Origin: Neelides folsomi
Taxonomy: Eukaryota; Arthropoda; Collembola; Neelipleona; Neelidae
Reading direction: 5' to 3'
NCBI GenBank assembly: GCA_034687125.1
Contig: JAQGBZ010000530.1
Location: 1-34,758 of the forward strand
Length of the DNA stretch: 34,758 nt
A program made the position numbers and the translations under genes. The notes below the pieces were generated by a model. That model did not search any database. It was not told the DNA's origin and worked only from the letters and a program-made list of their open reading frames with translations. Shown here piece by piece: positions 1 to 34,758 of the stretch (position 1 is the stretch's first letter; each line of letters begins with the position of its first letter).

Positions 1-2548
1 TTGTAATTCGTATCTCTGGAAATTATATGCGGGTTTTTCAAACTCACCTGCACCGATTTTGGGAATGAACTATAGTTGATTATATAGTTAAGCTTTTCCT
101 ATTAAGAGAATCTCAGAATTCATTTATTCATTCACATTTTCAAACTGAACACATTACTCGTTGCTTTACCTGATAACTGATGAACTCTTAATGTAATAGA
201 AAATCCTTTTTTTCATAAATGGGAGTTCTCGTTATAAAATACTGATTTAAAAATGTTCAATTTCTTCAATGCAAAAGTCATGAGAGCGTTCTCGTCAAAG
301 ATTCAATGAACATGATTACCTACTTATAAATGCAAGCTAAAACTACTTATAGGACGAGAATATTACTATTGTTTTATCAAGAATTAAAGTTGGAAACGAG
401 ATACTCTTGAGGCAACCTAAGATCTGTACAGTTTAATTCTTAATTAATATATTTAGTGAAAGGAAATAGACTTAAATATTTACTTTGTATTATTACAAAA
501 TGAGATGTGTACCACTTTTTCATAGTCTTGTGAATATACTATTACTTATAATTATATAGACAAAAAACAAATATGATTTATTGCATTTGGTTTATACTTT
601 GACCCAACGATGAATGTCATTTATAAATAATGTCACATTATCTAATAGCTTATTTGTAACTTCCATGACTGGCTATTTTGTCAAGTGAGTTTGATGGTTT
701 GACTCGTTCTGAACAGATCGTCGACTTTCACTCTGACTCGCTCAATGCCACAACTTTTTTGACACTGTTTGATGAAGTCGAATGTTATAATGAGAAGTGT
801 AGGTTGAAGATATTCATAAATTAATTAATTATGTAAACTAAAAAAATGTAAGTTGAATTCAGATTTTTTAAGCTCATTGTCAGTTAATTAGTAATTTTTA
901 TATTAATAGTCAAAATTTTAAACAAAGGATATTAGGAAAATTAATTAGGAAATTGGAATTATTCTTATTGAGAAAATCATGTTATAAAATTTTAATTATG
1001 AATTGAGGCTAAAAATATTAAACATGTGAGTTAATTTGGTATTTTACAAGTGTGTAACTTTACTAATTTACCAATGAGTACATACTATAATATACTTAAT
1101 TGCTTAATTTAATTGTTGATCCTGCGTTTTTATAGTCGAAATGTGTGAGGTCATTTGAAAGAAAAAAACCGGTTGATCCTTTGAACCTTCAAGCATTTTT
1201 CAAATGTTTTTTCTCACACGATGCTTGCCATAAATACAAACGTTAAAATTATGATATTGTAATATAATATTTAGTTAAGTGAGCTAACTTTATAATAATG
1301 TTTAACTATAAAAGTAGAGTCGATTTAAATTTGTTTAAGAATTCTCTTCGTTACTTTTGTATCATGATACATAATATATAACTGATATAATATTTTCAAT
1401 ATTAATATGAAAGATCTGTAGAAGTAAAGTTTAACAACATGGATTATGTTACCTCTATTTAAAATATAGATTATAAAATTAAAATATTTTTTGGGCATTT
1501 TTGTCTCCTTTTGCTCCTCCTCAATGTGTCATTTACGCAAATCGCAATTATATAATTTACAAAGTTATCCTCAATTATATTTCCTATAAATAATATGTTT
1601 ATTATATAAGCGGCAACTGTTGCAGCTTTTTCTAATTATTATTTAGCGTAAGCTTCAACATGACAGCTATTTTGTTCTAGTGAATTCGTGATTAATGTCA
1701 AATGTGGCAAAAATTCAATATTTGTTTTATTTTCAAAATTGATATTCGCGTAATATGAATATGAGTAAAATGCCTTTAAATTGAAAGATTAAATACTAGA
1801 TTTTAAGATTAAGGAATAATTAATTAAATATATTGTCCTATTTTTAGTTAGGTTGAATTAAAACTTTATTTATTGAGCGAAATAAATACCCAAAACTATT
1901 ATTCATGATGTTCATTTCATTTCAACTTCATCGTGTTTTGCATATTAAAAGTTGTCCGATTTAAAAAAAATTATAATTTATTGCATAAAAACTAATCTAC
2001 AAAACATACATTCTAAATTATAGCACAAATATTTATAATATTTATAATTTTATTACTCTTAAAGTTGAACTTGTAAATATTTAGATATTTATCTTTATCA
2101 AAGCTATTAGGTATTTTATTGCAAATTACACAATACACGAATTGGGAAATTACTATAAAATTCACTAAATTCGGCATGTAGTTTTAGTGCACTTGGACAT
2201 AAAAACACAATGTATGCACATAGATATTTACATTATTAACTTTATGTCTGTATTTGTTTTATGAGATCTTAATCATCCAATAAATTAATTAATTATGACA
2301 CAACAAGATATATAAATTCAAACATACTGTGTACATTGAATCATTTCTTCTGATGTATTTGGGTTTTTTTACTAAAAACCAATAAAACATAATTATGTTT
2401 TAAGCTATTATCTATAATATGAATATTATATCTGTAGATAGCTTAAAAGAAAAGTAGTAGAAAAACAAACTATGTTAATTAATAAATTACAATAATTGTA
2501 ATATCAGTCAAGAATAGTCAATTGGTAAATACACTTAAAACGCAATGC
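1..2548. other. AT-rich intergenic region, no gene seen
   Basis: No open frame of useful length and no recognisable exon lies on either strand. The DNA is very AT-rich, with scattered TTAATTAAT-type runs. I see no tRNA, transposase or long repeat. The only structured element I could pick out is the inverted repeat at 2398-2448, listed separately. Distal regulatory DNA or old transposon remnants cannot be excluded by eye. Confidence 0.6.
2398..2448. repeat. Imperfect inverted repeat (hairpin), AT-rich
   Basis: TTTTAAGCTAT at 2398-2408 is matched exactly by its reverse complement ATAGCTTAAAA at 2438-2448. The sequence between is itself nearly palindromic (ATAATAT..ATATTAT around 2414-2429). 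The element sits about 100 bp downstream (in transcription sense) of the stop codon of the minus-strand gene ending at 2549. It could be a small MITE remnant, a structure in that transcript's 3' UTR, or chance in AT-rich DNA. Confidence 0.45.
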
Positions 2549-4170
2549 TTAAGGTGGTCGTACATAACCGGCAACGAGTCGGCAGCAATTCCTTGCTGCG
2601 CTTTTCTTTTTATGAAGAGAGTCACACATGTGGCAGCGATGAATTTTTCCATTGTGTGCGTACTCAATGTGTCTTTTGATCCATCCTTTTCGCCAAAGCT
2701 TTCCACACACCGGGCAAGGATACTTGGCCTCGAGTTCCCTAAGGGCTGGAATATCCGGGTAGGGTGAATGGGGCGGGGAAATGAGTCCGTCTTGTTCTGC
2801 TTCTTCGATCGTTTGTTCCAGCACTTCTCCTTCTCCCTCTTCGATTTGAACTTCTATTGGGATTGATGGAGATTCAACGATTTCTGTGATGATGTCGGAA
2901 GAATCTGCATGAATAAAATAATAATTAATGAATTTGAAATTACATAAATTTATATGACTTATACTTAGGTTAAGTTATGGAAGGTAATGAGGTAATGGAT
3001 GCTTTATAACCTTTGTATTTGGAATTTGATTCATCGAGATATCCGACTACTGTGAATTGCATTGTTTGAAAGGTAACCTTCTTCGTACGGTTAACAAACG
3101 CACAAAATCTATTGAGCTTATCTTCAGTCAATATTCCAGCCCCTCCTTGTTCAAGTAGTCGGTTGGCAGCATCATCAAATTCTTCCTTTTTCTAAAATTA
3201 TAAAATGAATATTTAGTATTTTTTTAAAATGTGTAACAATGTCGAATCAGTATTTTAATTTTAAAGTATAATTTTATTAATATACAAAATGTAACTAAAG
3301 ACATGATTAAACCTCGTCACTCATAATTGCATCAACAAGTTGACCAGTTTCATTTTCAAGATTAAGAAAAATTTCGACAGCTTGAAGAAGAAAACGCCGA
3401 GGATCCCATCCAAACTTCTCCGGATCTTTTACTTCAATTTCGGCACATTTTTGACTGCAGAGAAGAACGAAATTGTACACGAGTCCATTGGAAAGACGAT
3501 GAACTAATTCGGGTCTTAAAAAACTGTCTTTGAGTTCGACAGAGAGATAATGAATTATTTCCATTGATTCCTTTCCAAGCCTCATTAATGCTGGGCATGT
3601 TTCTTGATCTTTGGAAAGTTGTTGAATTCTCTCTTGTTGAACTTCAAGACTCTGAGAATTCCAATTCATGTGGTGAGATAAGTCTTCTTGGACAGCGCTA
3701 ATCCTCTATTAAACGAATAAAGTTTTAGTTAATTAAAAGGCACCTCTCAAATGCAATTTTGGAATGATTTTAAGTTTTATTCTATGCAAATACCTTTAAC
3801 GATTCAAGAGTTTCTTCAAGTAATATTGAGGCATCGTTGATCAACGTTAATGCAAAAGGGATGAACTCTTTTCTTGATCGAGATTCATTTACAATCACTT
3901 CTCTGTAATCAGTGAACAAAAATGTAAATTATATTGAGAATTAAGATTATTTAAAAAATATAAATTATTGCATTTAACTTTATTATATTTTGTATATAAT
4001 CAATATTATTACTTGTAGAGAGGATTGCTCCACAATGTCCGAAAGAGAGTGCAGATATTGTATCGTAAAATATATTTATCAAGTGAATCCATAAATTCCA
4101 AGTCAGCGTAGAACTTCATTAAAATTGATGAAAAGGGGAGTTGCAAATCGTAAAATAATTCTTGAGCCAT
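2549..4170 (-). CDS. UBE4/Ufd2-core protein fused to a C-terminal zinc-finger module, no U-box
   Basis: Five exons: 4013-4170, 3794-3902, 3313-3705, 3011-3191 and 2549-2904. Together they encode 398 residues. Residues about 10-245 read as the C-terminal part of the Ufd2/UBE4 core, which in the family holds the U-box of E4 ubiquitin-chain elongation factors. Clear matches are LMKFYADLEF, LINDASILLEETLESLKRIS, FLRPELVHRLSNGLVYNF and EIEVKDPEKFGWDPRRFLL. Where UBE4 has its U-box, this protein has an acidic linker (about 281-325) and then Cys344, Cys347, His359, His364 (C-x2-C-x11-H-x4-H), followed by Cys371, Cys374 and Cys387/388. The N-terminal half of UBE4 (family length about 1,000-1,300 aa) is missing. 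In-frame TGA and TAA lie just upstream of the ATG at 4170, so the short start looks real. It may be a derived UBE4 paralogue that binds partners without ligase activity. The core assignment is firm; the function is inference. The last exon could belong to another isoform, but its phase fits exactly. Confidence 0.72.
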
Positions 4171-4975
4171 TTTTACTTGTAATCTCAATCACAATTATTC
4201 GAACTAAAATGTTTTCAAATGTGTTTAATCACATGTTTAAATAAGTGTCGTAATATTTAAACTGTATTTTAATCTTTTAATTAATAAAAGAAAAAGCTAA
4301 TTTCAATTTTGATCTTTGCGAATCTGATCTGATATTAAATTGTATATTGTATTGTTTGTACCGCTGAGGACTGAGCGGCGTTTAGGAAGTGACCGACAGA
4401 ATATTTTCAAATCGGCTTCCCCCAACGTTCAATTTTTCTGCTCTAAAATTGAATAATTTTTAATTGAAACTTAATGATAATTTTATTTATGCCGTAAGAT
4501 ATATCATACATTTTTCTTTCTAATAGAAAATGCTGATTAATAATATAATAATATAACATTCTAATAATTATAATGTGGGTAATGAATTTACACATTATTA
4601 AATATTTTTATTCTATATTTAAGCTACTTACATACATACAAGTACACATACTATACATACACACATTAAATGTTATTACAAAATTTGGTAAATTACTTAT
4701 AAAAGTTCACTCCTTATCGTTTTCTAATGTTAACATGCGTAATCAAATTATTAATCAATTGGGTTTCATATGTATACAATTCATGATTTTATCATAAAAA
4801 TCTAACATGACATAATAAAAGTAAGTAAGTATTTGTAATAATCAGTAAAATGGTATATGATTGATATTATAAATAAATAAAATATTGAAATTACATACTG
4901 ATTGTTACTTGTAGTCATTTTATAAAAAATTAACTTATGGATTTCAACACAGTGAGAATGCATGCCAAGTTAACA
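4171..4975. other. AT-rich intergenic spacer
   Basis: This lies between two minus-strand genes. I looked for upstream exons that would supply the missing N-terminal half of UBE4 and found none. The 74-codon plus-strand frame at 4573-4797 has low complexity (Ile, Leu, Tyr, His) and no family signature. A degenerate ACAT-type microsatellite lies near 4629-4668. The promoter of the UBE4-like gene is presumably here, but no clear core element is visible. Confidence 0.5.
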
Positions 4976-5989
4976 TTACTGAATATTGCTACAAGATGTA
5001 TTTGCTTCTAAGACAAAATCGTCACATTCTTCATTTTCCACTGGATCTTCAATGTGATTTTCTTCAGATTCCGAATCTCTGTCTTGAGTCTCTGTCTCGT
5101 GCTGTTCTTCGTCGGTTTGTATTGGCTCAGCCTTATGCTTCGGCTCTTCTGCATTTGAGGACGCAGCTTTGTCAACTTCTTGTAACTCACATTCAGATCC
5201 TGAAATTGGTCTTGCTTTGGAACAAACGTCGTTTGGCCCGGCCGGTGAAAATTTATATACCTTTGACTTTTCATTCGGGAAGTATTCCGAGTAAATGTTT
5301 GGATAAGTTTTGCGAAACTAAAAAGAAATAAAATAATAATGTGTTTGCAATTAAAATAGGAATATTATTGAAAACTTATTTACTCTTTTTTAATAAAAAA
5401 GACATTTAGTGTAAAAGAGAGTCATTGTCGTTTACACACGTTCTTGAGCATTGCTTCTTTTCTTTTTTTAGTCATCGTCTTATTCTCCGCAATTTGAATG
5501 AGAAGATTTCGAAGCTCCACTGCTTTTTGAGGAAATTCGTTGTATTTCTTGGAATCAACTTTTTGACAAGAAGTTCCTTTGTCAGCATACTTATTCACTT
5601 CCTTCCAATAAAATAACCAAAATTTCAATCTTATCTAATGTTAATTTGATTTATTAATTTGATTTATGTATTAATGTATTTTACTTCTTCAATGAAACGA
5701 TCTCTGTTGAAATAACCTCCGAGTATTTGCCTTATACTTTCCTTATCTTCTTTTGCAAGCTAGATAACAGAAAAAAGTAATTTTGATCTTTGTATTATTT
5801 TATAGGTATTCGACAAGTTTAATAAATTGATTTTACAGCTTCAATCATATCCGCTTTTGCATCAATGGGGATCTCTTGGGATTTGATATCGGCCACTTTT
5901 CTCTTCATTGATTCAAGAGTTTCTCGAAGATGTTCCTCAAAATATTTTCCAGTGAAGGCTCGTCGAACTTCTTCGTTTTCACCCATCAT
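4976..5989 (-). CDS. Unrecognised protein, helical N-terminus and acidic C-terminal tail
   Basis: Four exons: 5837-5989, 5685-5759, 5440-5634 and 4976-5317. They encode 254 residues, and all junctions are phase 0. Residues 1-140 look mostly helical and charged, with an aromatic patch (KFWLFYWKEVNKYADKG) at the start of exon 3. From about residue 165 the tail is disordered and Glu/Asp/Ser-rich (for example DRDSESEENHIEDPVENEE). I see no signal peptide, membrane segment or catalytic motif, and I do not recognise the family. An alternative acceptor for exon 3, 39 nt further in, is possible (starting EVNKYADKG); I prefer the longer exon because the shorter one would lose the aromatic patch. Two ATGs stand in tandem at the start (5989 and 5986). 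The gene lies 805 bp upstream of the UBE4-like gene and 414 bp downstream of the IFT54-like gene, all on one strand. A role in the nucleus or with the cytoskeleton would be a guess. Confidence 0.68.
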
Positions 5990-6403
5990 TCAAGATCTCC
6001 TCGTATTACGCCGTCAAAGAATGCTACTCAGTTAATTTAGAATATGACAAAATTAAAGATCTTTAATTTTACAACAATTCAGAACAGAGTAGAGGTGGAA
6101 GTGAGGAAAAGAAAAGATTTTGCAAGCAGCACTGCAAATTAAGCAATTCAGGCAATGGATGGGGATTGGTGGAAAATAAACTCTGTAAATGATGAGAATT
6201 AAAGGCGGTGAAGATGAATTTTAAAAGAACAATTTGGTTACAAAGGAATAATTCATTATTATTCATTATAGAAATCCATGGGTTTATGGTTTATGGCTTG
6301 GAATAAAAAGTGTTTATAACTTTAAGAGCTTTTATGTTATATATTAATTTCTAGCTTTTTAAATATTATTTTAAGTCATAATTCATAATTAAATAAACAA
6401 AAT
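5990..6403. other. Intergenic spacer
   Basis: This is the spacer between the start of the unrecognised gene and the stop of the IFT54-like gene. The 65-codon minus-strand frame at 6069-6266 is Leu/Asn/Pro-rich with no family signal and is treated as non-coding. No obvious TATA box or other element was picked out. Confidence 0.45.
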
Positions 6404-8416
6404 TTAAGTTGAAGAGCCAACAGGGATCTTTGACTTAATCTTTTTCTTTGTCTTTATATCTTTAGCTACTGAGGCCGCTGCTGGTAGTCTTGTCCTCAGA
6501 GGAACAATTTTACTCGGTTTGACTTTTGCAACTGATGGTTGGGTCGGACGAACTTTTGAGACTTTTGGAACTTGTGGAATTTCTACTTCAATGCTTTCTT
6601 CTTCAAGATCATTCCTATTCGCAATAAGCTCAAGAATTGATTCATCGAATTGAAGTCTTTGGTTATCTTCTACTGGAGCATTGTTATTTTTCGCATCTTC
6701 ACCTTGATTCTTCAACTTTTCTTCGGCTTCTTTGGCAGCTTTCTCGGCCTTTGCTTCGCTTACTGCGTAAACCCCTGCCTTGTAGAGTCCAACAATCACA
6801 TGATTAATTTTTTCCCCTTGAGTGAAAATCTCCATTTCGAGTTGGCTAACTTCGTCTTGAGCGTCCAACACTTTGTTTTTGTACATTTCGAGTTCGTCCT
6901 CAAGAGGAATAAGCTCACTTTCGAAATTCCTATAATATTCAAAAACATTAAAGAAACTTATTGTTTACTTTTCACTATCTAACTTTAATTGAATATTATA
7001 ATTACGATTCAATGTCTTCAATTTCAGCCTCCAAAGCTTCATTTTGTTTCTCTAAACGCCTCAATACTTCTTTCATTTCCTCACAATCCTTTAAGAAAGT
7101 CTCGTAACGTTCGCCCAAATTGGATGAATATTGGCAATACTTTTGAAGAAACGCTGCTGCTTTCTTTAAACTTTGGGTTGTTTGCTCATCAATTTTCTTG
7201 CCCTAGTTATATCCATGAAACATTTAAATTTCCTAAACTTACTTAATGGTTATTAATTTTATTAGCATAACATATCTGTAGTTTAAAGGCAATTAAAACA
7301 TCAAATGTATTAAATGTAAGTTTCCCTTTTTTGACTTTTTAGATTAATTACCAGATTCAATTGGGTTGTAACTCCTTCCAGATCTCCTTGAGTTTCGAGA
7401 ATTTGGTCAACTAAAGCTCCATACTTTCCCTCATTTTTCTTCTCCCCAGATCTTTTATCAAAAAAATGGTCAATTGAAGTCGTGTCGATGTTCGTTTCCG
7501 ATTCCTCAACTTCAACCTTGGCATTTTCCTTTAAGCTCTCATCCTTTTCATCTTCATTGTCTTTGAAAATTTCAACAGCCATTCTTGATAAGCCATAAAA
7601 ATAAAATGAACATTTTAAATACAATTCAATTAATAATTCAAATACAAAAGAATACAAATAATTAAATTAACAATTCAAATTCAAAAGAAATACAATAGCC
7701 TTGTAATTATGATAATGATAATTTATAGTACGAATATACATAAATTTTATATATTACTCGAATATTACCCAATTTTTTCATTATCAGGATCTGCAAAGGT
7801 TTGCATCTGCTCCAAAGTGAGTGAATTGTGAAAGTCATAGTCTTCCAGATCATCTTCCATTACGATTTCGTCTAGCAGATTTCTCGGCGGTGGAGGTCTA
7901 GCACTTGGAGGTCGTTTGTAACTCACCTCACGCCTATAAATCCCAAGAGGGAATAAAAGGCATCAAATTCCTTTATATTTATTCATTCCCGTAAATTACA
8001 CCTTTTAAGGTAGGTTTTAGCAATATCCTCGAAGTGATTTAGATGTAAATTTCTCACTTGGCTGACTGAGATGTCACCGGCCTGTCAACCGACTTGAGAA
8101 GATGTTCTGACTCAAAGGATGACATTGCTGGAGTTGGAGGCGGCACACTCGTTTCTTTAAACTTCACGTATAAATCAGAAGGGATTTTTGTCGGGACTGA
8201 AGTTTCCACTTTGCCTGGCATTTTCTCCATTCCCGAGTTCTTATTATTATTATTCTCAATCTTCAACTCCTCCTCGCTCGTTTGTTTGATGTGAGACGGA
8301 GTTTCCTCCGGTTTCTTCATCCCTTTCTCCTCATTAAGTTCTCGCTCGAGAGTATCTTGGATAATTTCCATCAAAATGAAATCCTTTTCAATACTCGTCG
8401 GCTCCTCTTCACTCAT
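6404..8416 (-). CDS. IFT54: IFT54/TRAF3IP1 (MIP-T3)-like intraflagellar transport protein lacking the N-terminal CH-like domain
   Basis: Five exons: 8058-8416, 7769-7933, 7352-7583, 7006-7202 and 6404-6929. They encode 492 residues. IFT54 is an IFT-B subunit that works in cilium assembly and binds tubulin. The match is modular. First comes a disordered Glu/Lys-rich stretch. Then, at about 126-137, comes RPPSARPPPPR, which resembles the RPxSARPxPPR signature of MIP-T3, with an acidic EIVMEDDLEDYD just after. A long C-terminal coiled coil (about 225-375) follows, with LVDQILET, NLGERYETFLKDCEEMKEVL and MEIFTQGEKINHVIVGL in the family order. A basic Lys/Pro tail ends the protein. The N-terminal CH-like tubulin-binding domain, usually the first 130 residues or so, is absent. 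The ATG at 8416 has an in-frame TAA nine bases upstream, and no CH exon is visible in the 636 bp before ECD. An AG directly before the ATG leaves an upstream spliced exon formally possible. Sequence divergence keeps confidence moderate. Confidence 0.62.
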
Positions 8417-9052
8417 CTTGCTTTATTGGCTCTCCTTGGGGGTTTGACGATAAATTCCAAGAAGCAATCAGAGAAACTTTTTGGAATTTGATAAAGCGAT
8501 TTGAAAGAAAAAATTCTTTTTCAAACTTTGTACAAAAAAAGCTATGACAGTTGAACAAAGGAAATGTAAGACGATGCTTTTTGGTCAAAAATCGATAACT
8601 TTCAGTTTCAAAGACCAATTCTGAAGCTGAAAACTTTCAAGAAATATTGGGCTTAAATTTTCAATCTGACTAATTTGAAATTCGAGGCGTTTATCCTCTA
8701 AAAACTAATTAACGGAGAAAATGAAATGCTCTGTAATAAACAATTTAAAACATTTAAGGAATCTACCTAAATCCAATGGTTAAATAATTAAAAGTTCGTT
8801 TATTGTTTATGAATAGCTTTTAGTGCTTCTATGTAGTTATAAAATAAGGATAGAAGTAGTGGGTTCAATTATGAACGAATGAATGATGTATTAACCCCAA
8901 ACCAATGCATTTATATTTTTATTATATTTATTTATTATTGTACATTAGTACATTTGAGGTTAAATTGTTATTAAAGTATTAAAACTAGATATTTAAACAC
9001 ATTTCATCTCTCCGTAAAATACAAAGGAGTTTCTTATATTTAAAGTTCATAT
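8417..9052. other. Intergenic spacer with poly(A) signals for ECD
   Basis: This lies between the IFT54-like gene and ECD, both on the minus strand. Three overlapping or adjacent AATAAA hexamers (minus strand) lie at 8918-8936, 117-135 bp past the ECD stop, and are likely its 3' end. The small minus-strand frame at 8409-8618 overlaps the IFT54 start out of frame and does not encode a CH domain. I saw no convincing RFX X-box for a ciliary gene. Confidence 0.5.
8918..8936 (-). terminator. Cluster of AATAAA polyadenylation signals, ECD 3' end
   Basis: On the minus strand AATAAA occurs at 8918-8923, 8927-8932 and 8931-8936. The cluster is 117-135 bp beyond the ECD stop codon at 9053-9055, a normal 3' UTR distance. 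Confidence 0.5.
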
Positions 9053-11708
9053 TTAATTCTTCATTTTAGACAAATCGAATCCGACAGATCGGAGGAGATT
9101 AGCTGATGGACCCGCGGGACCTTCTTGGCTCTGGAACGATTCTAAAATATTCTTTAAAGTGTTCATGTCAATGTTGACAGGTTCAAATGACTCGACGTCG
9201 CCGAATTCATCGCCTTCTTGAACCGCTCCTTCGCTCCCAGGGACATTCGCAGCAAAGGTCTTTCCCACGTCTGTGCCTTCCAACTCAGTGTCCATCTGCT
9301 TCATAAGCTGATGGATTTTGGAATCCTCTTTGAAGTCGTACATTGCTTTGACTTCTGCCTCCAGCTCAGTGTCGCTGATTTCCTCTTCACTCTCATCCCA
9401 GTCATGATCAGGCTTGCCCAATTCTAAGGATATAAATAATTGAAAATTAGATAATATACAAAATACAATATACTATTACAGTATTACAGTCAGTTAATTA
9501 ATTTTATTACTAACAAAAAATCTCATTACTTATTGTAGTGAATAAAATTTATATTAACTTACCCAATAGAAGTTTATCAAGAGCAGTGACAAAATCGTCA
9601 GCTCTGAAGTCCAGGGGTTCGACTACTTCTGAACTGTCGAAATCACCCGCTCCAATTTCACCTTCGTCAATTTTATCTTTTTTGTCCCTATATCAAAAAT
9701 ATGTAATGTTATCTAACTGTAATGTTATAAATGATTCTAATTGATGATAATTTTTCTTGTTTAGTAATTTCAATGGATAAATAGTTACAAAATAATAAAA
9801 AGATTTACCCTGGAGTTTCAACTCCATCGATTCCCGAAAGTTGGCTCATGAATTCTTTAAGCTTTGCTGGAATATCTTCAGGTTTCGGAATGGAAGACGA
9901 AGATTTGAATTGAGCTTCTAAAAGAGAATCGAGATCTTCTGGTTTGATTTCTAACCAAGATTCATCTGAAATAAAACGCAATTTATTAGTAAATAATTTA
10001 AAAAAATTTCTATTCCAACGCCCAAGATCAGCATTTACGATTATTATTGTGTATTCCCGGCTCGTATAGACGTATAGAGTATAGTTTAAAACAGTGAATT
10101 AGCTGAAAATCCAACTAATGATTTTATTATTATTATAAAATTTTTTTAAATTAACCGTCATCGGGGATAATTTTAGCTGATTCTCCCGAATTGAAATTGC
10201 TTGTATCAAGTGAATTGAGAAGGGTTGAGATTTCTTCCGCAAGTGAGTTTTCTGCGAAAGAGAATGGGGACTCAATGCTCATATTCTTGTCAAAAAATTC
10301 ACGGGCTTTCGCTTCAAGTTCCGTAAAGGGTTTTGATCCTTCAAGGAAGTCTTTGAAATATCCACGATTCCTCAAACTGGATGAAAAACGAATCCAGCCA
10401 GCTGAATCCGCACTAGAACTCGAAATCTGTTTCTTCTTTCTTGAGAGCAGGATTTCAAATGCAAGGGTCTAAAAGATGAAAACTTTTTTAATAAGCTGAA
10501 TAAATCAAAATTTATTGGATTATTTATTGATTCTTTTACCAATTTCGCTCCAATGCTGTGTGCTTTAAATTCAGCCGTGTTTGGACGAGGGAAAGGCCAG
10601 CCGGATTTGGAGTCAGGTCGAAATTCTTGCTTTGAGAGCATCGCATATAAATATCTAGTGAATCGGATTCTTTTCATCACAAGGGCATTAGCTGGTTTGA
10701 AAGTATTCATCAGTCTTGTAGACTAAAAATAAAATAAATATACTTGAATTGATTGATAAAACTATAAATAAATTAAATACTGAATGAATTTTAAACTTAC
10801 TCGCAAATCTAATGGATCTCTAAAATGGAATGCTTGTACCGCTGCAGAAATATATTGGGGTTTGAGTTCAAGGAGTTGAGCGAGAATCGGTGGCAGCATG
10901 ACATTTACTTCATGGAACCGATTCTCTTTCATCATCTTCTCAATCCGAGTCACAATTGCTGTTTGGATTTCATTAGATGCCTTTGTCTCTTTGTGGAACT
11001 TCTTCACCACTTCGATTGCCTCCGGAATTGGAGGAGTATGAGCTGAGAATTTATATTTCAAACTCGGAGGAATCAAGTGAACTTTTCCTTTTGATATGTA
11101 GACCTAAATAAACAGAATTTATATTAAAGTTAAAACTTTGATCATTTAAGATTGAAAAGTTGATTATTGGAAAAAATTAAATATTTTACCCTTTGAAGGC
11201 AATTTTTATCAGAATCGGCCCAGTTTGGAAGACACTCAGCTGCTTCAATGAGTAAAAACTCTCCTTCATTATCAGTGACTCTGTGATTTTAAAAACCATT
11301 GAGTTAAATAAAACCCCGAAGTGATAAAGTGTAGTGCAAATTAATCATGAATGAGTTGAGAATTTATGCTTTATTTTATAGTGAGCTTCGTTTAAAAATA
11401 AAGAATTTCCCATACCTTGCGATAACATCTTGAAACTTCTCCGTGAGAAGAATAAGAATTCTCACAATGAACCACTCGTCTTCGACGTTTTCCCCGAATC
11501 GGGTAATCCCATAAAAATGATCCGACTCGAGTTTAAGAACAAAAGAATCCTTATGCCATAAATAATTCCCTATGATCTCCTCACACGCTTTGTTAATTTC
11601 GCGAAGAAATTCCTCGTTCACGTCCTCTGCTTTGGGATATAGGAAATATTCAATGGAGTCTTCTTCGAGATCCGACCCCAAGATTTTTCCCAAATCGACA
11701 TTTTCCAT
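9053..11708 (-). CDS. ECD: Ecdysoneless (ECD/SGT1 family)
   Basis: Eight exons: 11416-11708, 11190-11280, 10801-11103, 10540-10722, 10156-10468, 9809-9965, 9563-9687 and 9053-9423. They encode 611 residues, close to the family's usual 640 or so. ECD is a conserved regulator that binds the R2TP chaperone complex and PRPF8, and acts in pre-mRNA splicing, cell cycle and, in flies, ecdysone production. The conserved N-terminal half is plain: EDSIEYFLYP (about residue 17), FGENVEDEWFIVRILILLTE, VTDNEGEFLLIEAAECLPNW, KGKVHLIPPSLK, HFRDPLDLR and PDSKSGWPFPRPN. The C-terminal third is acidic and less conserved (DHDWDESEEEISDTELEAEV, then VDIGKTF-like and LRSVGFDLS ends), as expected. All eight exons join in phase. 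It starts 342 bp from the divergent xylosyltransferase gene, so the two may share a promoter. I see no truncation. Confidence 0.95.
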
Positions 11709-12050
11709 TTTGGAAGATTAAAAGTTTAAATTGGGAAATGTTTTTGTTTATTTTCTATCAACAGCAAGAGGAGAGCCCAGCCTTCGGAATTTCAATTTGA
11801 GCATCGAGCTAAATCCAGCCACCCCATGGCGGTTCGGTTCAATTTCCAATGTTTATAGCCATTATTATACCATAATTTTAGTTTTAGTTTTTAATCGGAA
11901 TTTTAGTTATTTTTCTTATCCTTTTTGAATTTAGGATTAACTTCGATGAATTCCTCCGTTTCCGATTCCCATTTTGATCACAATTTGAGAGTTTGAGAAG
12001 GGCCGAGTGGGGTGAGACATGACATAGAGGAAGGATATGATTTTAAGATA
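11709..12050. promoter_or_regulatory. Shared divergent promoter region of ECD and xylosyltransferase
   Basis: This 342 bp gap separates the ATG of ECD (minus) from the ATG of the xylosyltransferase gene (plus). It is less AT-rich in its middle (around 11765-11850) than the surrounding intergenic DNA. I see no TATA box at a convincing place for either gene. The role as a bidirectional promoter is inferred from the geometry. Confidence 0.5.
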
Positions 12051-15000
12051 ATGGCAACGGAACATGACTTTACTCGATTTTATCAAAAATATAAAAAGTT
12101 CTTTGTCTTTCTTGGCATTCTTCTCGCCATCCAAGTCTTTTTAGCCGCAAGGGTCATTTTATCCCTTCATGATGACATTGATTTTATAAATCATAATAAT
12201 ATATTCAAAAGTCACAAGAGTTTTGTGAATCCACACAATTGGTTCTCTTCGAAAGAAGATGCTTCCAATGTAAGAATTTTATCGCATTAAAAATAAAAAT
12301 GATATACCTGTACAAATGCATGTATTTGGTATACTCATTATTATAATTGCAAAGAATTGTAAAATTAATATTTGTCAATTTATTTGCAGATTATTGGTTC
12401 AATGCACTTTAAAACGAAAAAGACAAACAACGGTGATACAAGCACATCCGAAGTGAGTCCGAAACTCCACTTTTTAAAACTCGTATATTTTGTTATATTG
12501 AAAGACATTTAAAAGGTTATTTCATTGTTTTATTCAATGCTAACTACTAACGTTTATTTTAATTTAAATAGAAGATTGTCCCAACGGCGAGTTCTAGTCC
12601 GCAGACTCTTGACTTTGAATCACTCTCTTTTGTTCCTGAATGTGACATTACATCAAAAGAAGCCATTTCAGCTATCCAACGTGCCAAAACAGAAAAGTGC
12701 AAAGAGCAACTTGCAAAAACAACATGCATGATTCAAAATGGAACGTTATACCCTAAAAGACTTCCACGTTTCTGCTCTAATAAAAGTAAAAAAATATTTA
12801 ATGTTTTTACTAAAAAAAATATGAAATGCTCTATACTTTAAATATTTTACATCTTTAATTGTTAATTATATTTCATACATTTTTTTATAATTCTAGAAAC
12901 GACTTTCAAGAAAAACCTTGGGTGCTTTCGAGACGATAGCGAGACTCGTTTACTACATGAACAATTTAATCTTTTGAAAAATAGTAATTCTCCAGATACG
13001 TGTATTGATTTATGTCTTAAATCTGGTTTCCAGTATGCCGGTGTTGAGTATTCGTAAGTATTATTTATTAAATTAACAAGATTTAAATTAATATCTTATA
13101 TCGAATTATGGTCTCTAGATTAATATTAATCATTTGTTTAATTTCAGAGTTGAATGCTTTTGCGGGAACTTGAGACCGTCCGAAAATTTCATATTACCTA
13201 CAAATGACTGTAATATGAAATGTCCTTCAAACGAAGATTTAGTCAAAGTCAATAATCAATCATACTCGGAAATAGTTACGAATGTAGAATTTACATGCGG
13301 GGGATATTTTGCTTTAGATGTATATGAGACTGGCATTTTTCATGGTAAGGAAAATGATATTTGCCTAAATAATTTTAACTTAATTTCCATTTTTTCTTAC
13401 CATTGCCTTTTGTATTTAGAATTGGATTCTCCGAACGAAGTTAAAAGTCTCGAAGAAATATCTGGGATTGAGATTGTAAAGTCCGTCCGAATTGTTTTCT
13501 TCCTAACTTTGAATGGAAGAGCTTACAGACAAGTCATCCGCCTAATCAAAGCTTTATTTCATCAATCGCACTTCTTTTACATTCATGTTGATGCCGTAAG
13601 TTTAAACTGTATAAAATATAAATATATGAGCCGCTCATTTATATCTATTGAAAAGTAATAAATTATTTAAAATCTTTCTAAAAAATATTTATAGTCTTTG
13701 GATTTAAATTATTTTATATACTTAAGTACATAAATAACTTTTTTCTCTTTCAGAGGCAAGATTATTTATATCGTGAACTTCAAATATTGAAGGAGAAACT
13801 CCCAAATAATGTCCGATTTATGAATGATAATCGGCGGGCGACAATCTGGGGCGGCGCCAGTTTACTCACAGTTTTAACTCTCGGAATGTCTGATATTGTG
13901 GAGAATTCCAAAGTTTGGAATTGGGATTGGGACTACGTTATTAATTTGTCAGAATCTGATTTTCCACTAAAGTACGTTACTTGTTCAATCCAACATTAAT
14001 TGCCCCTTGCCCTCTTATGTCAAAATTTAAATACCTACATATTACCTTTTTGTATATTCTACAAAAAGTAAATTGTTTTTAATTTTATTAGAACGTCGAA
14101 AATCCTCGAGCGTTTTCTCAGTCATAACGCAGGAAAGAATTTTGTTAAAAGTCACGGGAAAGAAGTTCAAAAGTTTATTCAAAAACAAGGACTTGACAAG
14201 ACATTTGACGAGTGCGAATTCCGGATGTGGCGATTAGACGATAGAATTTTACCATCAGGTAACTTTTTATTTAAACATCTTTCTTCTTTATAAAATGCAT
14301 TCTATGTAATTGTGCTCTTTTACATGTACAATATACAGAGTTCTTATAAATTCTAATTCTAATCCATATTGTTGATTTTAGGAATTTTGATAGACGGCGG
14401 GAGTGATTGGGTTGCGCTTCATAAAGATTTTGTTCGGTATATTGTTACTTCTGATGACGGTCTTGTTAGTGGATTACAAAAAGTGTTTAGGCAAACGCTT
14501 CTTCCTGCAGAAGTAATATATTTTTATAGAGTTTGAATTTGAACAGTATTTTTTTCAAATCTGTTCATTTTTTGATCATTTTTTATATATTTTGACAGAG
14601 TTTTTTCCATACTGTGTTGAGGAATTCTGAATTCTGTTCTTCATTTGTGGACAACAATTTGAAAGTGACAAATTGGAAGAGAAGTTTGGGCTGCAAATGT
14701 CAATATAGGAATGTAGTAGATTGGTGCGGATGCTCTCCGAATGATTTTCGTATTGCAGATTGGAACAAATTACTGGTAATTAAAGAAGCCCCTTTCGAAT
14801 TCTTAAATTCTATTTTATAATCCATTAAAAATGTAGTTTCCCCTGCCCAATCTACTAATATTTTAGAATAAAGTTTTAATTTGTAATTAAATTTTTAATT
14901 TCAGTTGGCCGAAAGTAGGCTCATTTTCTTTGGTCGCAAGTTTGAAGCTGTTGTCAATCAAGGAATCGTGAACAAATTGGAATCCTGGCTCTACCCGCAG

Positions 15001-16676
15001 AGATTGTCTAGTCATCAATTGACGATTGATAAATATTGGCAAAGCGTGTACCATTATAGTGATGTGTCTCCGAAAGTTGATGATGCTTTGCTTACGCTTG
15101 GCAATTCCTTGGCGCGTTTCTCTCTCAAGATCTTTGCTGGGAAGTTTTTAAATGAGGATCCAAGTGCTACAGAGAATTCATTCATTAAAGATATGCTCGA
15201 ATCGGCAAAAGTCGAAGAAATTTCTGCATTTTTTCAAAATGATGAATTTCAAGGAATTCTTATCCGGTCCCAAGGTTTATTCACTTCTGAGTCAAATATC
15301 CGTATAGAATCATGGTTTAAGTTAGAGAACATTGTCACATTGGAAAACTGGAACAAGAAAATATCAAAAATTCATTCGAGAATTCAGGTTTGATTTTTTA
15401 TATCATTTTTATTAATATCATTATTATTTTTATTTTCATTAATATTTGATTTGATTTCAAATAACGTTTGCATAGGTATTAAATCTATATTAATTTTAGT
15501 TTTTCTCCTAAACTAAATTGTGCATTGTATTTTTTATCATGCAGGATATCCGTGTTGGGACTGATTATGACCAGAAAGAGCAAACATTTAGAAACTTTGC
15601 AGGCGCAATGGGCCCAATGAGTGAGCCAACATTAGCTTATAATGTTTTCAACGATGAGTCCTTCAACATTACCTTTGTTTGGATCAATCCAATTAATTCA
15701 ATCCAGGCGATTCAAAACGTGACCGTTGTGGACGGCTCCACGGTGAGTTCCCCTCAATTATAATATCTTATATCAAATTACACCATAATCCTAACTTTTC
15801 TACACTATAGGCTAATTTCGTGAAGCCAAACTTAAAAACTCCGTTGCTCTCTGGAATTTGGAAAGTCGTAATGACCACTAATGGGCATCTGGTGGCCCAA
15901 ATGAAGTTCCTTATAATTCCTCTTCAATTTTACAACGGGGATCACATTACTCCATCGCAATCAAAGTTAGTTTTTTTCTTATAATTTCTCTCTCATTTGA
16001 ATCCATAATTTGAACTTGCTGGTTACAATGTATACTTTTACTTTACATTGAAATATTACATCATTGCTTTTTCGATATACTTCTATTGAATTATGAACAA
16101 TGTTTCATCCTGAATTGAATATTTTATTAGCCATTGTATTCTATGGAACTTTTGAACCATTTTATGCCATTCTAAATATAGTTAATTTTTTATATAGTTG
16201 TAACATAATACTATGCTAAATTACTTGTGTGAGTATTGAAGGTTTTCACGGTTTTGACATTTTATAGGAAAATGAACACAAAGTCCGGTACCAGGAGGGG
16301 TGTAGTTTACGAAGAGGATTTTAATAGATCTAGTCAAGAACTTGTTTCCTCGATCGACGGTTTTGTTTCAAAGTAAGGGAAAGAATGTTTATTAGCACTT
16401 CAATTACCCGGATGGTCGTTAGGGAGGAAATGAGGAGTAATGCATTATTTGTTTGTCTAAAGGTTCTACACAGTTCAGGACTTTTGCTTGGAGAAGGAAC
16501 TGAGCGAGGTGACAATAACTCGGTGGTTTCCTGAGAAAAAGGAAGGAGATTTTGAGGGTAATCCTGACTCGATGGATGTGTCTCTCTGCCGCCACTCCCA
16601 ATGGAGCTCTCTCTTCCCCGATCCTAAATCCACTATTACTCACATCGACCCGGAAACGGGCCTCTTGGCTCCTTGA
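12051..16676 (+). CDS. oxt: Peptide O-xylosyltransferase (GT14) with WSC domain
   Basis: Fifteen exons: 12051-12269, 12390-12452, 12572-12785, 12897-13053, 13148-13344, 13420-13595, 13754-13971, 14092-14258, 14382-14512, 14599-14775, 14905-15387, 15545-15742, 15811-15965, 16268-16372 and 16463-16676. They encode 957 residues, close to vertebrate XYLT1. The enzyme moves xylose from UDP-xylose to serines of proteoglycan core proteins, the first step of heparan and chondroitin sulfate linkers, in the Golgi. It is a type II membrane protein: short cytosolic tail, then a membrane anchor at about 17-39. A Cys-rich stem follows ([20 protein letters not shown]). A WSC domain (LGCFRDD.., VECFCGN; about 172-275) follows that. 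The GT14 domain ([20 protein letters not shown], then the [15 protein letters not shown] motif with the DWD acids, [12 protein letters not shown] and [10 protein letters not shown]) leads to the XylT C-terminal domain (about 574-957). I chose the ATG at 12051; an in-frame GTG at 12012 is not a credible eukaryotic start. Confidence 0.96.
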
Positions 16677-18291
16677 CTAATACAAGTATAATTATTATAC
16701 ATGTATTACTCGTTCCAGTGATTCTCTCCGGATGTTCCCGGACATTCGTTTCTTCTTTCCAGGACTTTCAATGGCATTTATCTTCACTGTGTTTTAAGTG
16801 AGCTCAGAAGACGAAGTATTACGCATTTAGAATGCGTAGGGAGAAAGCAATAGAACCATTTACATATAATAATAATGTAGTTATAAGAGGTTTTGATCTC
16901 TCAGAATAACTTTTTTTAATTATCTTGGGAGATTCTCTTAACTAAATATTTGTCTACTTAATTTCATTACATTATAATTTTATTCTAATTTACGTTCCGG
17001 CATTTGGCATTTCAATCACTATGATTGTTTCAAGTAGTGAATTCTAATGCATTCACATATTCATAATATAATCAGACTTTATTAAAATATAGTAAAAGTT
17101 CGAATTGTGCCAATAATCATCAAATACACACTGACTTAAACCAAAATACTCTGAATCTTATTAGTAATTAAATAATTTAACAATATACACAATATTTCAT
17201 AGAATAAAACACTTATAAAATATCCAATTTTAAGGCTGATTTCAAATAGAAAATAATTTTAATTCTGACATTAAACTTTACTTTTCCGGTATATGCGTTA
17301 TATAGAATTTAATTTAAATTTTGACAACTTTTTTTAACATCTGGACTCCAGGTTCATACATACATATTGTGTTAATATGTAACATTAATTGTATTTAATT
17401 TAATAGCTTTTCTTAGCAGTTTGACTGGTTTATTCATCTAATAAATACATAAGTAGGTGAATATTCAATTCTTCTCAAATGATTGACGTGAAATGAATCG
17501 CACCTATCTCAACCTTCTCACTATTCACAAGTTTATTTATTTGACTTTGTTTTTATGCGACATTAGTCGTTGTAATTGATTTATTATAGAGCTTACCATT
17601 GTATTTAAACAAACGCATTTATTTATGCAATTGTTAATATTGTTATTTTAAAGGTTTATGTTTACAATAAAGTAATAAAAATAAAATTATAAAAGCCTGT
17701 TGTAGCTTTATAATTAAATATTGAAACCGATTAAAAACAAGTAAATATTAAAGTCCATTGAAAGAATATTAACTGTAATTGAAATATTATTTATAATGAC
17801 AAATATTGTTATTTGAATATCTTATTTATTTGTTATTTTTTACAAAGTGGATTTTAACCCTTACCATGGGCAGAGGCTATAAGAAAAGTCTATTATAGTA
17901 GTAGGAATGCCAACGTGCATTATAAAGAATTATAAATGTGTGATTGTTCAAAAGTACACAAGAGATGTTATATCTATGAAAAAGTAGTAAAAAGAAATAG
18001 GTAATAATACTAACATTAAATGTTATCTTATAGTGCAATGTGGATTTGAAATAAAGAGTCATTTCTGCCTCTCGTGTGAATAGTTGATCATATTGATTCA
18101 TGTGGTCGTTAATTTGTCATTGTTTTACACCTGCTGGTGATTTATTACCAATTTCATTGAGAGCATTAATGTCCTATTGATCATGAAGAAGGTGAATTGT
18201 GGATGAGTCATTTATTCCAATCCACTCTATCATTCCTAATTATTTAAACCTACTCGTTATATTAGGCTAATAACAAATAACAAATATGTAT

Positions 18292-18330
18292 AATTCAATT
18301 TTAATTGAATTTAATCAATTAATGATTAAA
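18292..18330. repeat. Nested inverted repeats in AT-rich DNA
   Basis: AATTCAATT (18292-18300) and AATTGAATT (18303-18311) form a perfect 9-bp inverted repeat with a 2-nt loop. TTTAATCA (18310-18317) and TGATTAAA (18323-18330) form a second one with a 5-nt loop. It may be a small transposon remnant or chance in AT-rich sequence. Confidence 0.4.
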
Positions 18331-18819
18331 TTGAATAAATACAATTAAGATACATTTAACCAAAACTATTCATACTATATTAGAATTTGCAGCAGACTTT
18401 GATCATTCGAAATTCTTTTGTAACCGCAAGTTTTTAATGGAAAGAATGACATTGTAAATATGTAGGAGAACATGCATGGTTCTTATATTTTTCTTTTGAA
18501 ATGTATCTTGTAATTTTGTATGCAAAAGGTGTGCAATTTATTATGCATATTAAATAATTTTTTCCAGGTTGTCAAACATTGATTGAAATGTACCTTATGG
18601 GTCGGCGTGTAGGTTTTTATAAGGAGTAATCCAAAGGATCCCATTCTTTATATTTTGTATGAATCTGATGAAAGGTTAGCTTATTTCTAATGCATGAAGC
18701 CCATTCGCTGAGAAGGGTGTCGAGAGAACCAAATTACGGTTCTTTATTCACCTTAGGTTCACCGAGTCTGCCATATGAGATTATTTAGCGGAAGAAGGGG
18801 GAGGAATTCCCCTTTAAGT

Positions 18820-18836
18820 CCACACACACACACACA
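18820..18836. repeat. CA dinucleotide microsatellite
   Basis: An uninterrupted run of about eight CA units lies in the intergenic region upstream of the crystallin-like gene. Confidence 0.8.
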
Positions 18837-19252
18837 ATCCAAGTAAATCCCATTCATACCCGTCCTCCACACTTTTTGTTTTCGCGGGGCTCTTGAGGAA
18901 TTCCTTTCACGAAAATAATAGATCACATTGTAGAACCCTTCCCCATAAATATTCTTTACAGAGACATCCCTCGTTCTCACGGCCTGATTGACAAAAGGAA
19001 TATTCAGTAATAGGAGAGGAAAACAATTTTATTTGTTTACAATCTGTTGAGGCATGTAAATGAGCCCTATTACTCACATGAAGACCGATGGATGTATATG
19101 TTGTAGAGGTGTCTAATAGATTCGCCCCTCATCTCCCCCGCCAACACAAATTGAATGTGGGGAAGTGAGCGGAGGTGACGGGCGGTTTTTGGCCGTCCCA
19201 TAAATCATATTCCTTCCTGAAGGAATCCATAGCCTAATGATGAAATGCTGGC

Positions 19253-19259
19253 TATAAAA
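19253..19259 (+). promoter_or_regulatory. TATA box of the crystallin-like gene
   Basis: TATAAAA lies 81-87 bp upstream of the ATG at 19340. A start site about 30 bp downstream of the box would leave a 5' UTR of roughly 55 nt. It is the clearest core promoter element in the window and fits a strongly or tissue-specifically expressed gene. Confidence 0.7.
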
Positions 19260-19339
19260 GAGCTCGAGGTGGGATTTGGGGGATATTGGAGAACAGAGCC
19301 TTCCTTCTGGTTCCCTATCATTCTATCAGAGATAAAGAA

Positions 19340-20218
19340 ATGTCTCTCGCCCTCGGCTGCCTTTTCCTCGGGGGCTTCGCCCTCGCCATCGCCCAAGAAG
19401 CGAAGTTCACTCTGTACGAAGCAGCAGGATGCAACACGAGGAGTCGGAGCTTCACTGGGGTCCAAACGGACTTCCCTAATATGACCAACTTCAAATTTGA
19501 TAACTCTGCCGTTTCAGTAAAGGTTCAAGGAGTGTGAGTTTTGATACACAGTACAAGACTTTCTTTGGAAATTGTCATTATATTTGGAATTTATTTGGAA
19601 TTAAACGGGTTTAAAATAATTATAAATGTAATGAATGGGACAGATGGATGTTCTACGATAACTATTCCTATGAGGGAGGCACGGTGGAATATTACTTCTC
19701 TAAGGACTACAAATGCATCGACCTGAAGGGCACAAAGGGAAAAGTCTCCTCGGCGAGGTTTGCAGGTTCGTTATTGTGTTAAGAGAATTGAGGATCCTAT
19801 TCCGCGGACGGTAATAAGACCCGTCTGGTTCCCCCCAAATCAAAACTTATGTACCTGGATAGCAGGAATGACGGCCGTGGGGTTTGTTTCTAATTCCTCT
19901 TTCTCTCTATATCTCAATATAGGGTATCCAAATGATATGAACCTCAACTTCATTAACTTCTACCAAGGAACGTACTTCACGTTTGAAGAAGTGGCCACGA
20001 GCAAGGATCTCCCGTCAATTAACCTCGAACAACCCCCGGCGTCTCTCATTGTGACTGGCTCCATTCCGTGGTCAATCTACGACCAGCCGAATTTTACTGG
20101 GAATGCAAAATGCGTCCGCCCGGCCAAATCCACTCCGTTTTTTGTACCGAATCTTTCTGAGACCCTTCCCGGGTTCAAGATCTTGTCTGTGAAGCGGGGA
20201 TGTGCCAACGTGAAATAA
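19340..20218 (+). CDS. Secreted beta/gamma-crystallin-like protein, two Greek-key domains
   Basis: Three exons: 19340-19533, 19644-19765 and 19923-20218. They encode 203 residues. Residues 1-18 form a signal peptide (LALGCLFLGGFALAIA), so the protein is probably secreted. Four Greek-key-like strands are visible: FTLYEAAGC (about 22), WMFYDNYSYEGGTVEYYF (about 66), FYQGTYFTFEE (about 118) and WSIYDQPNFTGNAKCV (about 158). The phrases AVSVKVQGVW and KVSSARFAG, just before and after the second motif, are typical of a crystallin repeat. The layout is two domains of two motifs each. Cysteines are spread over both halves. The calcium-binding signature (D/N-D/N-x-x-S/T-S) is only partly present (DNSAVS). 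Intron 1 is 110 nt and intron 2 is 157 nt. The stop codon overlaps an AATAAA. In animals this fold occurs in lens and in many stress or extracellular proteins; the role here is unknown. Confidence 0.85.
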
Positions 20219-20219
20219 A
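20214..20219 (+). terminator. AATAAA signal overlapping the crystallin stop codon
   Basis: AATAAA covers the TAA stop at 20216-20218. If it is used, the 3' UTR would be only a few tens of bases long. Confidence 0.45.
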
Positions 20220-21343
20220 TATTTGATTCTGGGTGAAAATGATTTCTAAGCCTCTTTCATACAACCCATTTCTCCCTATGCGAGCGGGGAATAAGTCATA
20301 GGAGAGAGGAATAGTAATGAGGTATGGTGGAAGTAGGTGAGCCCTCGACGGTGTTCCGGTTGGGAGCACAAAGGCATAAGTCATATAATGTGGTAAAAGA
20401 GCGGAATGGATGATTATTGTGATTGTGGGGCTGAGGGTGTTGTGATAGCCGTCTTTAAACAAGAGCCCCGCTAATGGCTTTCTCCCTTACAAAAGAAGGC
20501 TGAATAAGTTATGTCGGATCGGAGATGCCGTCTTTCCCGGGCGGGGTTGGGGATAATTAAAATAATGGGGGCCGGCGGCGGGTGGGTCGATGGGGTTGGG
20601 GGTCTGCCCCCACGGCCCCCGTGGGTCTATAGGTCGCGGCGCTCAATAGGGAGGGTGGGATCACTTATAAATCACTGTCCACGGAGTCCGAGCCGGGAAA
20701 GTGGATTGAGGGGAGTTTGGCTCACTCAGTATTGTTCGAGGGGAATAATGGATTAGGCGGGCCGAGCTTTTATAGAGTCTCTCAAAGAGCCCCCATAACT
20801 CTCAGAGACAAAGGCCTGAATAATTAATGCCTTATGACATCAGGAGGAAGGTAAGGAGGGACATAGCTGGAGAGTCTCTCTCCCGGTTTCCCGCTCGGGA
20901 CAACTTCCCCCGTCACCATTTTTCAAAATTTATCTCGCCTTTTTCTCCCGTTGAGGGAGAGTGAAAGTTTGTCGGGCCCAAGTTGGGAAACTTCCTCCTA
21001 TTAGCAGAAGTTTGTTCCGGAACAAGGAAGAGAGGAAACTTCCTTTCCTAATTTAGCTGTCATCGTGGGGCGAGAGAGGTTCCGGGCAGCTGCCGCCGAA
21101 CCGCGGCCGCGGCCCGCCGCCTGTCGCCCCGATTTATGGGCCGGAGCCCTCAATCAAATGAGGGCTAATCCGGCGGATTACGCCCGTGGTGGGCCCTAAT
21201 TGGCCCCGGCCAGCCTGGTTGACAGGGGAGCTTACTAATGCCTAATGCGCTTGAGTTCGGGGAGTCGCATCTGCAGGGAGGAAGAAAAGAAAGGGCCCAC
21301 GGCCCCACCGTCCCATTCTCCCTCCGAACTCGGCCCGGCACAC
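20219..21343. other. GC-rich intergenic region upstream of the CA10-like gene
   Basis: This holds the most GC-rich stretches of the window, for example 20565-20645 and 21085-21135 (NotI-type GCGGCCGC with flanking CCGCCG). Open frames here (for example the minus-strand frames between 21165 and 21574) are by-products of low stop-codon density. I see no TATA box near 21344. It may act as a CpG-island-like promoter, but that is an inference. Confidence 0.5.
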
Positions 21344-28191: not shown

Positions 28192-28602
28192 TATTAAAGC
28201 CAAATAAATCATGATTATCTCAAACTAGTTATCTAAGAGTGAAAGTTCTCCTTATTTCCAATTCTTCCATTGTTTAGGGGCCTTAATCATCCGCCCGCCT
28301 CCACACCCTTCATAATGCATTCAGACCCAAATGTCTGTATCTGTTCGGGTGGGTCATATTTCAGCTTCGGATGTTCAGGAGCTGAATGGACTGTCTCCCG
28401 CCCTATATGTGCATAAACTTCAATTTATTACTCCGAAAGTTCTCAAGTATCAAATCCGCTCCGGTCTTCTTCCTCCACCTTATGAATATTCATTGTTACT
28501 CTCCGAGGTTACTGAATATTTAAATTACTTTCTTACTCCCTCCATAAAAAAGAGCTGGAAGAGGTTTAGTTATTTTTTATCAATTCGGTATTTTTCTAAA
28601 TT
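28192..28602. other. Short spacer between SLC25 and TMEM223
   Basis: It holds the AATAAA of the carrier gene at 28203-28208, 12 bp after its stop. The plus-strand frame at 28331-28801 runs out of frame into TMEM223 and has no family signal. The TMEM223 promoter is presumably here; no TATA box is clear. Confidence 0.5.
28203..28208 (+). terminator. AATAAA polyadenylation signal, SLC25 gene
   Basis: AATAAA begins 12 bp past the stop codon at 28189-28191. Confidence 0.45.
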
Positions 28603-29937: not shown

Positions 29938-30481
29938 AATCCCTCCCAACAACCCAACAACCAAAAATCCATTAAATGCAAAATATGGCCATGTTTATTC
30001 AAAATGTAAGTACAATGTTAAATTAATTTTTAATTAATCATTTATTCTTTTTCTTCTAGGTCAACATATATCGACAAGTAAATGTAAATTGCTCATTGAT
30101 GAACTAAGACAATGTAAATATTTATAAAAATTTTAATGTCAAATGTATAAGTATGAAATAAGAAAAAATTTATAAGTAGAAATATAAAACTGTAAACATT
30201 CACACATGCCTATATACAAAATTATGTATTTATTATGAAAATCACGACTAAATTTATCGATTGAAATAAAACCGATTTAAATATAAAAACATCATAGTTC
30301 ATAAAATATACCCTTAATGTTAGAGCTCTCATACATAAATAGCACTTTTGATTTTAAAATACAAAGCACTCATGATCTCATGAATAACTAAATAAGCTAT
30401 CCTTTACTACAAAGATGAAATATATTAGTTGAAGGGATTACTTATCAGAAGCATTCTTAAATAAGTAAAAATGTGAAGGTG
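29938..30481. other. Convergent intergenic region, TMEM223 and SON 3' ends
   Basis: No coding exon is seen. ATTAAA at 29971-29976 (plus) could serve TMEM223. TTTATT at 30229-30234 (AATAAA on the minus strand) could serve SON, about 250 bp past its stop. Confidence 0.5.
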
Positions 30482-34527: not shown

Positions 34528-34758
34528 CCTGGGTCTCGTATACACTTGTAGCTTACTTAACTTGTCACTGCCAATTACCCTATTATGTCACTTAGAGCGA
34601 ACCCTTTTGTTCCAAACCAAATGGACCCAATTCAAGTATTTCCAATATTAAATATCGCGTTTTAATAAAAAAAATGAATCATCCCCCCACGTTTTCCTTC
34701 AGCTCTCATCAAAACGAGGAGATGAGATTGATCGTAGTTGATCCTGGGAATAAGATTC
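34528..34758. other. Upstream of SON; possible start of a divergent gene at the right edge
   Basis: This lies between the SON start and the window end. At the edge, TTTTCCTTCAG (34692-34702) resembles a splice acceptor. An ATG at 34722 opens a frame to the end of the window (MRLIVVDPGNKI, 12 codons). This could be the first coding exon of a plus-strand gene about 195 bp from SON, but it is too short to identify. Confidence 0.25.

Follow-up and report, generated by a model that had tools for sequence, protein, structure and literature searches.

Introduction

The closest described systems include yeast Ufd2 and UBE4B, for which the available excerpts of the literature assign several partner contacts to one or the other end of the protein. 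In these excerpts, Rad23, Dsk2 and K29 chains bind the N-terminal domain of Ufd2/UBE4B, while the E2 binds the U-box (PMC4192671, PMC3235170, PMC5559722, PMC5303827), and UBE4B additionally binds p97 through an N-terminal VBM or RRRL motif (PMC5559722, PMC3235170). A further contact of yeast Ufd2 is with the C-terminus of Cdc48, with the part of Ufd2 responsible not named in the excerpted text (PMC4192671). As described in the excerpts, yeast Ufd2 that lacks the U-box can stabilise Yap8 (PMC4582114), whereas the U-box is required for the degradation of Mps1 and for the response to oleic acid (PMC4582114, PMC5303827), and the authors of one study found no sign that Ufd2 functions as a dimer (PMC5303827). 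A limited search of the literature found, among the matches listed and as far as their excerpts reach, no report of a UBE4 that lacks the U-box, carries a zinc finger or is chimeric.

Here we describe a gene of the springtail Neelides folsomi that carries the C-terminal part of a Ufd2 core and a zinc-finger-like last exon in the position where a UBE4B gene encodes its U-box. Judged from its sequence, its product is probably a small non-ligase protein assembled from the parts of a ligase.

Results

The gene lies on the minus strand, from position 4170 to 2549, of the window, by which we mean the whole stretch of 34,758 nucleotides analysed (contig C530 of an assembly of 75.1 Mb in 840 contigs). 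Its five exons splice to 1197 nt, comprising 398 codons and a stop codon with no internal stops, and all four introns are GT..AG, with lengths of 110, 88, 121 and 106 b, which bears out the five in-phase exons proposed in an earlier, sequence-only reading of this DNA. The start codon is found in exon 1 (4013..4170) in the context AAAAATGG, as read from the sequence, and an in-frame stop at 4189-4191 lies immediately upstream of the ATG. Codon scores trained on neighbouring genes favour the modelled frame over the two other sense frames in each exon; exon 1 scores low, at 0.03 per codon, as does the portion of exon 5 that encodes the finger, at -0.01 per codon, relative to a noncoding mean of -0.27 and a noncoding 95th percentile of 0.02. 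The donor of exon 4, GTTATA, in our estimation fits the common consensus poorly, and a donor-like GTATAAGT occurs at 2964, after a stop.

Residues 16-255 of the spliced protein match the Ufd2 core profile (PF10408, Ufd2P_core) from position 383 to 626 of 628, with E=7.6e-58 and 196.9 bits against a cut-off of 20.4 bits. Taken singly, exon 1 (profile from 383), exon 2 (3794..3902; profile ~421-461) and exon 3 (3313..3705; profile 463-591) match at E values of 1e-5, 3.6e-6 and 2.4e-31, respectively, exon 3 being the strongest, while exon 4 (3011..3191), which holds the end of the core, has no Pfam match on its own. The sequence-only reading had seen the C-terminal half of the core in exons 1-4; the C-terminal identity stands, although the retained share is only the last ~39% of the profile, with ~60% missing. 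Below the cut-off, the spliced protein also returns PEP_mutase (15.6 bits), zf-C2H2_4 (10.5 bits) and RUBY_RBDX (6.7 bits).

A U-box (PF04564) was found neither by Pfam in the spliced protein nor in the six frames of window positions 1-4200 at E<=1, and a Pfam scan of the minus strand at 1-12000 and 30000-34758 and of the plus strand at 1-4200 and 12000-30000 likewise returned none. On the minus strand between 4200 and 12000, no N-terminal core was found at E<=0.1. The absence of the U-box claimed earlier is thus confirmed by the protein and six-frame searches, as is the loss of the N-terminal part, which had been claimed from stops preceding the ATG, by the stop at 4189-4191 and the lack of core sequence upstream.

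Elsewhere in the window, small genes that by eye are rich in acidic residues lie beside the UBE4B copy (4976-8422, minus strand; no Pfam match at E<=0.1), and there is an SGT1/ecdysoneless-type gene at 9056-11717 (minus strand; PF07093). The plus strand carries a peptide O-xylosyltransferase-like gene with WSC, Branch and Xylo_C matches (~12050-16680), a eukaryotic carbonic anhydrase match (~21600-22540; PF00194) in a stretch that by eye seems richer in GC than the remainder, and a mitochondrial carrier gene (~25700-28200; PF00153). A minus-strand gene at 30485-33612 contains a G-patch and a dsRNA-binding domain, and we take it to be SON-like.

Whether the genome holds a UBE4 elsewhere, a question raised by the first reading, is answered by a U-box-bearing UBE4B-like gene on contig C719. 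This is the sole other locus in the assembly at which Ufd2-core matches were found, with four exon-sized pieces spanning profile positions 45-602 and a U-box at 5779-5982 (U-box exon, E=2.8e-25). We assign it to UBE4B because UBE4B is described with an N-terminal p97-binding motif and the C719 gene has the N-terminus IRRKRLARL, following a short first exon that was joined by eye. A search of the assembly with this N-terminus returned the gene itself and, weakly, contig C365 (E=0.009), and pieces of the N-terminal core are found on C719 only. The retained residues of the window protein presumably also resemble UBE4B rather than UBE4A, and neither a Ufd2-core gene that could be UBE4A nor a second copy of window positions 2000-4300 was found in the assembly. 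Three of the six U-box candidates scored in the assembly match at E<=0.001, namely C719, C5 and C9, none of them CHIP-like. The C5 gene combines DUF5918 with a U-box and has a RING match below the cut-off, an arrangement that we assume to be RNF37-like, and the C9 gene is PRP19.

Three of the four introns of the window gene are shared with the C719 gene in both position and phase. Intron 2 (3706..3793, phase 0) corresponds to the C719 intron that separates ESLK from RI, intron 3 (3192..3312, phase 0) to that after SDE, and intron 4 (2905..3010, phase 1) to that after PEEFK, which directly precedes the U-box exon. Intron 1 (3903..4012, 110 b) is extra, as it is missing from C719 at the corresponding place, and exon 1 begins within a stretch that forms a single larger exon in C719. 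The shared positions and phases indicate that the window gene derives from a copy made at the DNA level, and the C719 intron at the same position and in phase 1 lends good support to the exon 4 donor and thereby supports the joining of exons 4 and 5, which the first reading had left to RNA-seq. Exon 4 aligns along the penultimate C719 exon (60 versus 58 residues), with the last 25 residues aligning weakly. The 3' difference between the genes falls on the last exon, which encodes the U-box in C719 and an acidic linker and finger in the window gene.

Exon 5 (2549..2904), which takes the place of the U-box exon and ends in the stop codon, encodes an acidic stretch, a C-X2-C-X11-H-X4-H finger (from 2716), a short linker and a degenerate second unit, C-X2-C-X12-CC, without His ligands at the usual places. 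The X11 spacing of the finger is atypical relative to the C-X2-4-C-X12-H-X3-5-H pattern of C2H2 fingers, and for exon 5 alone zf-RING_15 ranks first (13.2 bits, cut-off 30.8) and zf-C2H2_4 third (12.5 bits, cut-off 27). Of the C2H2 plus Cys-rich tail first proposed, a finger-like last exon stands, with atypical spacing and with every Pfam score below its cut-off. A single occurrence of the finger pattern is present in the six frames of the window, compared to 0.03 C2H2 matches per window in Markov resamplings, in which the combination of finger, linker and CxxC appeared in 0 of 60. C2H2 structures in the PDB match the tail weakly (best E 0.05-0.2). A single-sequence AlphaFold model of the tail, of low confidence (mean pLDDT 60.5), has, among other helices, two at tail residues 74-83 and 100-114, in the places expected for zinc fingers, and a Foldseek search with this low-confidence model gave 0 matches.

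The tail was found once in its own assembly. Its best other match in the genome is a cluster of two-finger C2H2 genes on contig C66 (E=0.0024, 29%), where adjoining genes at ~53300-57100 carry repeated two-finger units with an HN-type linker and come closer to the tail than any other genes seen in this genome; they suggest a candidate donor family. These proteins share with the tail a PC-x-VCG .. HN linker .. C-x2-C unit but differ in having complete C2H2 fingers, and no UBE4 core was seen in their open frame. The remaining matches in the genome are weak and are also C2H2 fingers. Among 5.8 billion proteins, a search limited by length and shared words yielded three candidates for the tail, none at E<=10, and of 68 pattern matches in viral contigs, 0 were confirmed. 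Searches of limited reach with the whole protein and with the tail found no relative with the same tail in the protein collection. The whole protein matched 4 of 3523 candidates, each of 235-282 residues, over 44-52% of the query and in the core only; these four may be pieces of spliced genes. Exon 3 searched against longer proteins matched 0 of 110 candidates at E<=0.001, in a search whose limits are evident from its missing ordinary full-length UBE4 as well.

Exons 1-4 are identical to the C719 gene at 107 of 272 aligned residues (39%). Within the shared core columns, the window copy is identical to C719 at 81/186 and to four database relatives at 78/186, 80/186, 74/173 and 74/173, whereas C719 is identical to the same four at 138/186, 122/186, 113/173 and 127/173. 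In a tree of six sequences, the end branch of the window copy measures 2.48 changes per site versus 0.16 for C719, with the position of the long branch unsure because only one of the three inner branches is well supported. Nucleotide differences from C719 number 127, 92 and 160 of 272 at codon positions 1, 2 and 3, respectively, and are thus fewest at the second. Neutral simulation from C719 to the same identity, with all change placed on one branch and without indels, produced 4-23 stops (mean 11.3), and 0 of 200 runs remained stop-free. Given no stops where about 11 are expected, together with the fewest differences at second codon positions, we infer that selection would have acted on the reading frame over a large part of its existence and that the copy is not fresh debris.

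Discussion

Taken at the level of its gene structure, the locus is likely to be a chimeric, ligase-dead paralogue of UBE4B. Such a gene would have arisen by a partial, DNA-level and intron-keeping duplication of the 3' part of UBE4B, with the last exon, encoding the U-box, exchanged at the phase-1 intron for an unrelated exon in which an acidic linker is followed by a C2H2-like two-finger unit; an exchange of the last exon is the route that the compared gene structures suggest. Translation would begin at a Met within the former core, the retained C-terminal helices of the core could act as a scaffold, and the tail could bind a new partner, either nucleic acid or protein, so that the protein would no longer be an E4 enzyme but a small, neofunctionalised adaptor. 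Because the U-box, which contacts the E2, and the N-terminal contact parts are both lost, ligase activity is very unlikely, and the protein would be expected to lack E2-dependent ligase activity. Reasoning from the parts that remain, we favour an adaptor that may pair a scaffold with a binding finger. Against the chimera stand the low coding scores of exon 1 and the finger, the weak donor and weakly aligned end of exon 4, the low-confidence tail model without a fold match, and the failure of the limited protein searches to find a relative with the same tail, as well as the dependence of the main Ufd2 functions on the U-box.

The copy is like the C719 UBE4B gene in its C-terminal core, exon order and three intron positions and phases, and differs from it in the loss of both the motif and the domain at the N-terminus, of ~60% of the core profile and of the exon for the U-box, and in having the extra intron 1 and a zinc-finger-like exon. 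It also resembles yeast Ufd2 (PDB 3m62, 2qiz, 9khs), with query residues 12-223 matching chain residues that lie between 620 and 851 at E ~7e-23, but has neither the U-box nor the UBL-binding N-terminal domain. A laboratory allele of Ufd2 with the U-box deleted offers a partial parallel, since in the excerpted account it too keeps one function without a U-box (PMC4582114); in that allele, however, the U-box alone is removed, and other functions are described as lost (PMC4582114, PMC5303827).

Several other readings of the locus can be weighed against the chimera. An unlikely one is that the protein is a decoy or regulator, in which the kept core segment competes for a partner or substrate of UBE4B and so dampens E4 activity. 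The presence of a U-box-bearing UBE4B in the same genome and the stabilisation of Yap8 by yeast Ufd2 lacking a U-box, as excerpted (PMC4582114), are consistent with such a role, and the Cdc48 C-terminus is bound by a part of yeast Ufd2 that the excerpt does not name and that could be the retained one. All contacts with a stated place in the excerpts, namely p97, Rad23/Dsk2, K29 chains and the E2, nevertheless fall in the lost parts, the core identity is down to 39-44%, and the excerpted study of Ufd2 reports no evidence of function as a dimer (PMC5303827). The earlier proposal that the protein keeps Ufd2 contacts thus finds less support, the placed contacts lying in lost parts, and a contact with the Cdc48 C-terminus may have been kept. 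We consider it quite improbable that two neighbouring units are present here, with a truncated remnant of UBE4B stopping at 2970 and with exon 5 belonging to a second, zinc-finger gene or serving as an untranslated exon. Reading on beyond the exon 4 donor does lead to that stop, the 12 read-through codons score as neutral rather than clearly noncoding (sum -0.18), and a donor-like sequence follows at 2964, but the donor at 3010 is homologous to that of the C719 intron and has the phase in which the finger frame is open, no in-frame ATG precedes the first finger within exon 5, and exons 4 and 5 are separated by just 106 b.

A decaying UBE4B pseudogene would account for the fast evolution and the lost ends, yet we regard it as highly improbable in view of the 398 open codons over five exons, the 4-23 stops found in the 200 neutral runs and the ranking of differences by codon position (3>1>2), part of which arose on the C719 side. 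The pseudogene alternative left by the sequence-only reading is largely excluded by the stop-free frame, as compared with simulation, and by the codon-position pattern. Four introns and an open frame also speak against a processed pseudogene or retrocopy, and a UBE4A remnant is unlikely given the three introns in common with C719. Finally, the finger could descend from a U-box in which zinc ligands had been regained, as SGK-x6-I-x-RH of the U-box aligns without gaps with CGK-x6-I-x-RH of the tail (local score 29; P=0.002 for that diagonal, uncorrected for the choice of diagonal). In 2000 shuffles, however, the local score has P=0.086 and the highest score over all diagonals P=0.082, 7 of 40 C2H2 stretches (from nine genome loci, some repeated and overlapping) score at least as high against the same U-box, and the similarity at the exon start has P=0.29, which makes this conversion extremely improbable.

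Within the preferred reading of a chimeric UBE4B paralogue, a more specific claim can be put forward only tentatively, and we hold it to be rather doubtful: that an exact swap of the last exon made an E4 ligase into a selected zinc-finger protein, in which the C-terminal helical repeats of the core would serve, independently of ubiquitin ligation, as a stand-alone scaffold aimed by a finger that binds nucleic acid or protein. If the gene is indeed selected, the C-terminal portion of a Ufd2 core, here joined to a different module where the U-box would be, would prove useful by itself, and the locus would provide a natural separation of core function from ligase function. If the proposed origin is true, the gene would document the exchange of a last exon at a conserved phase-1 intron.
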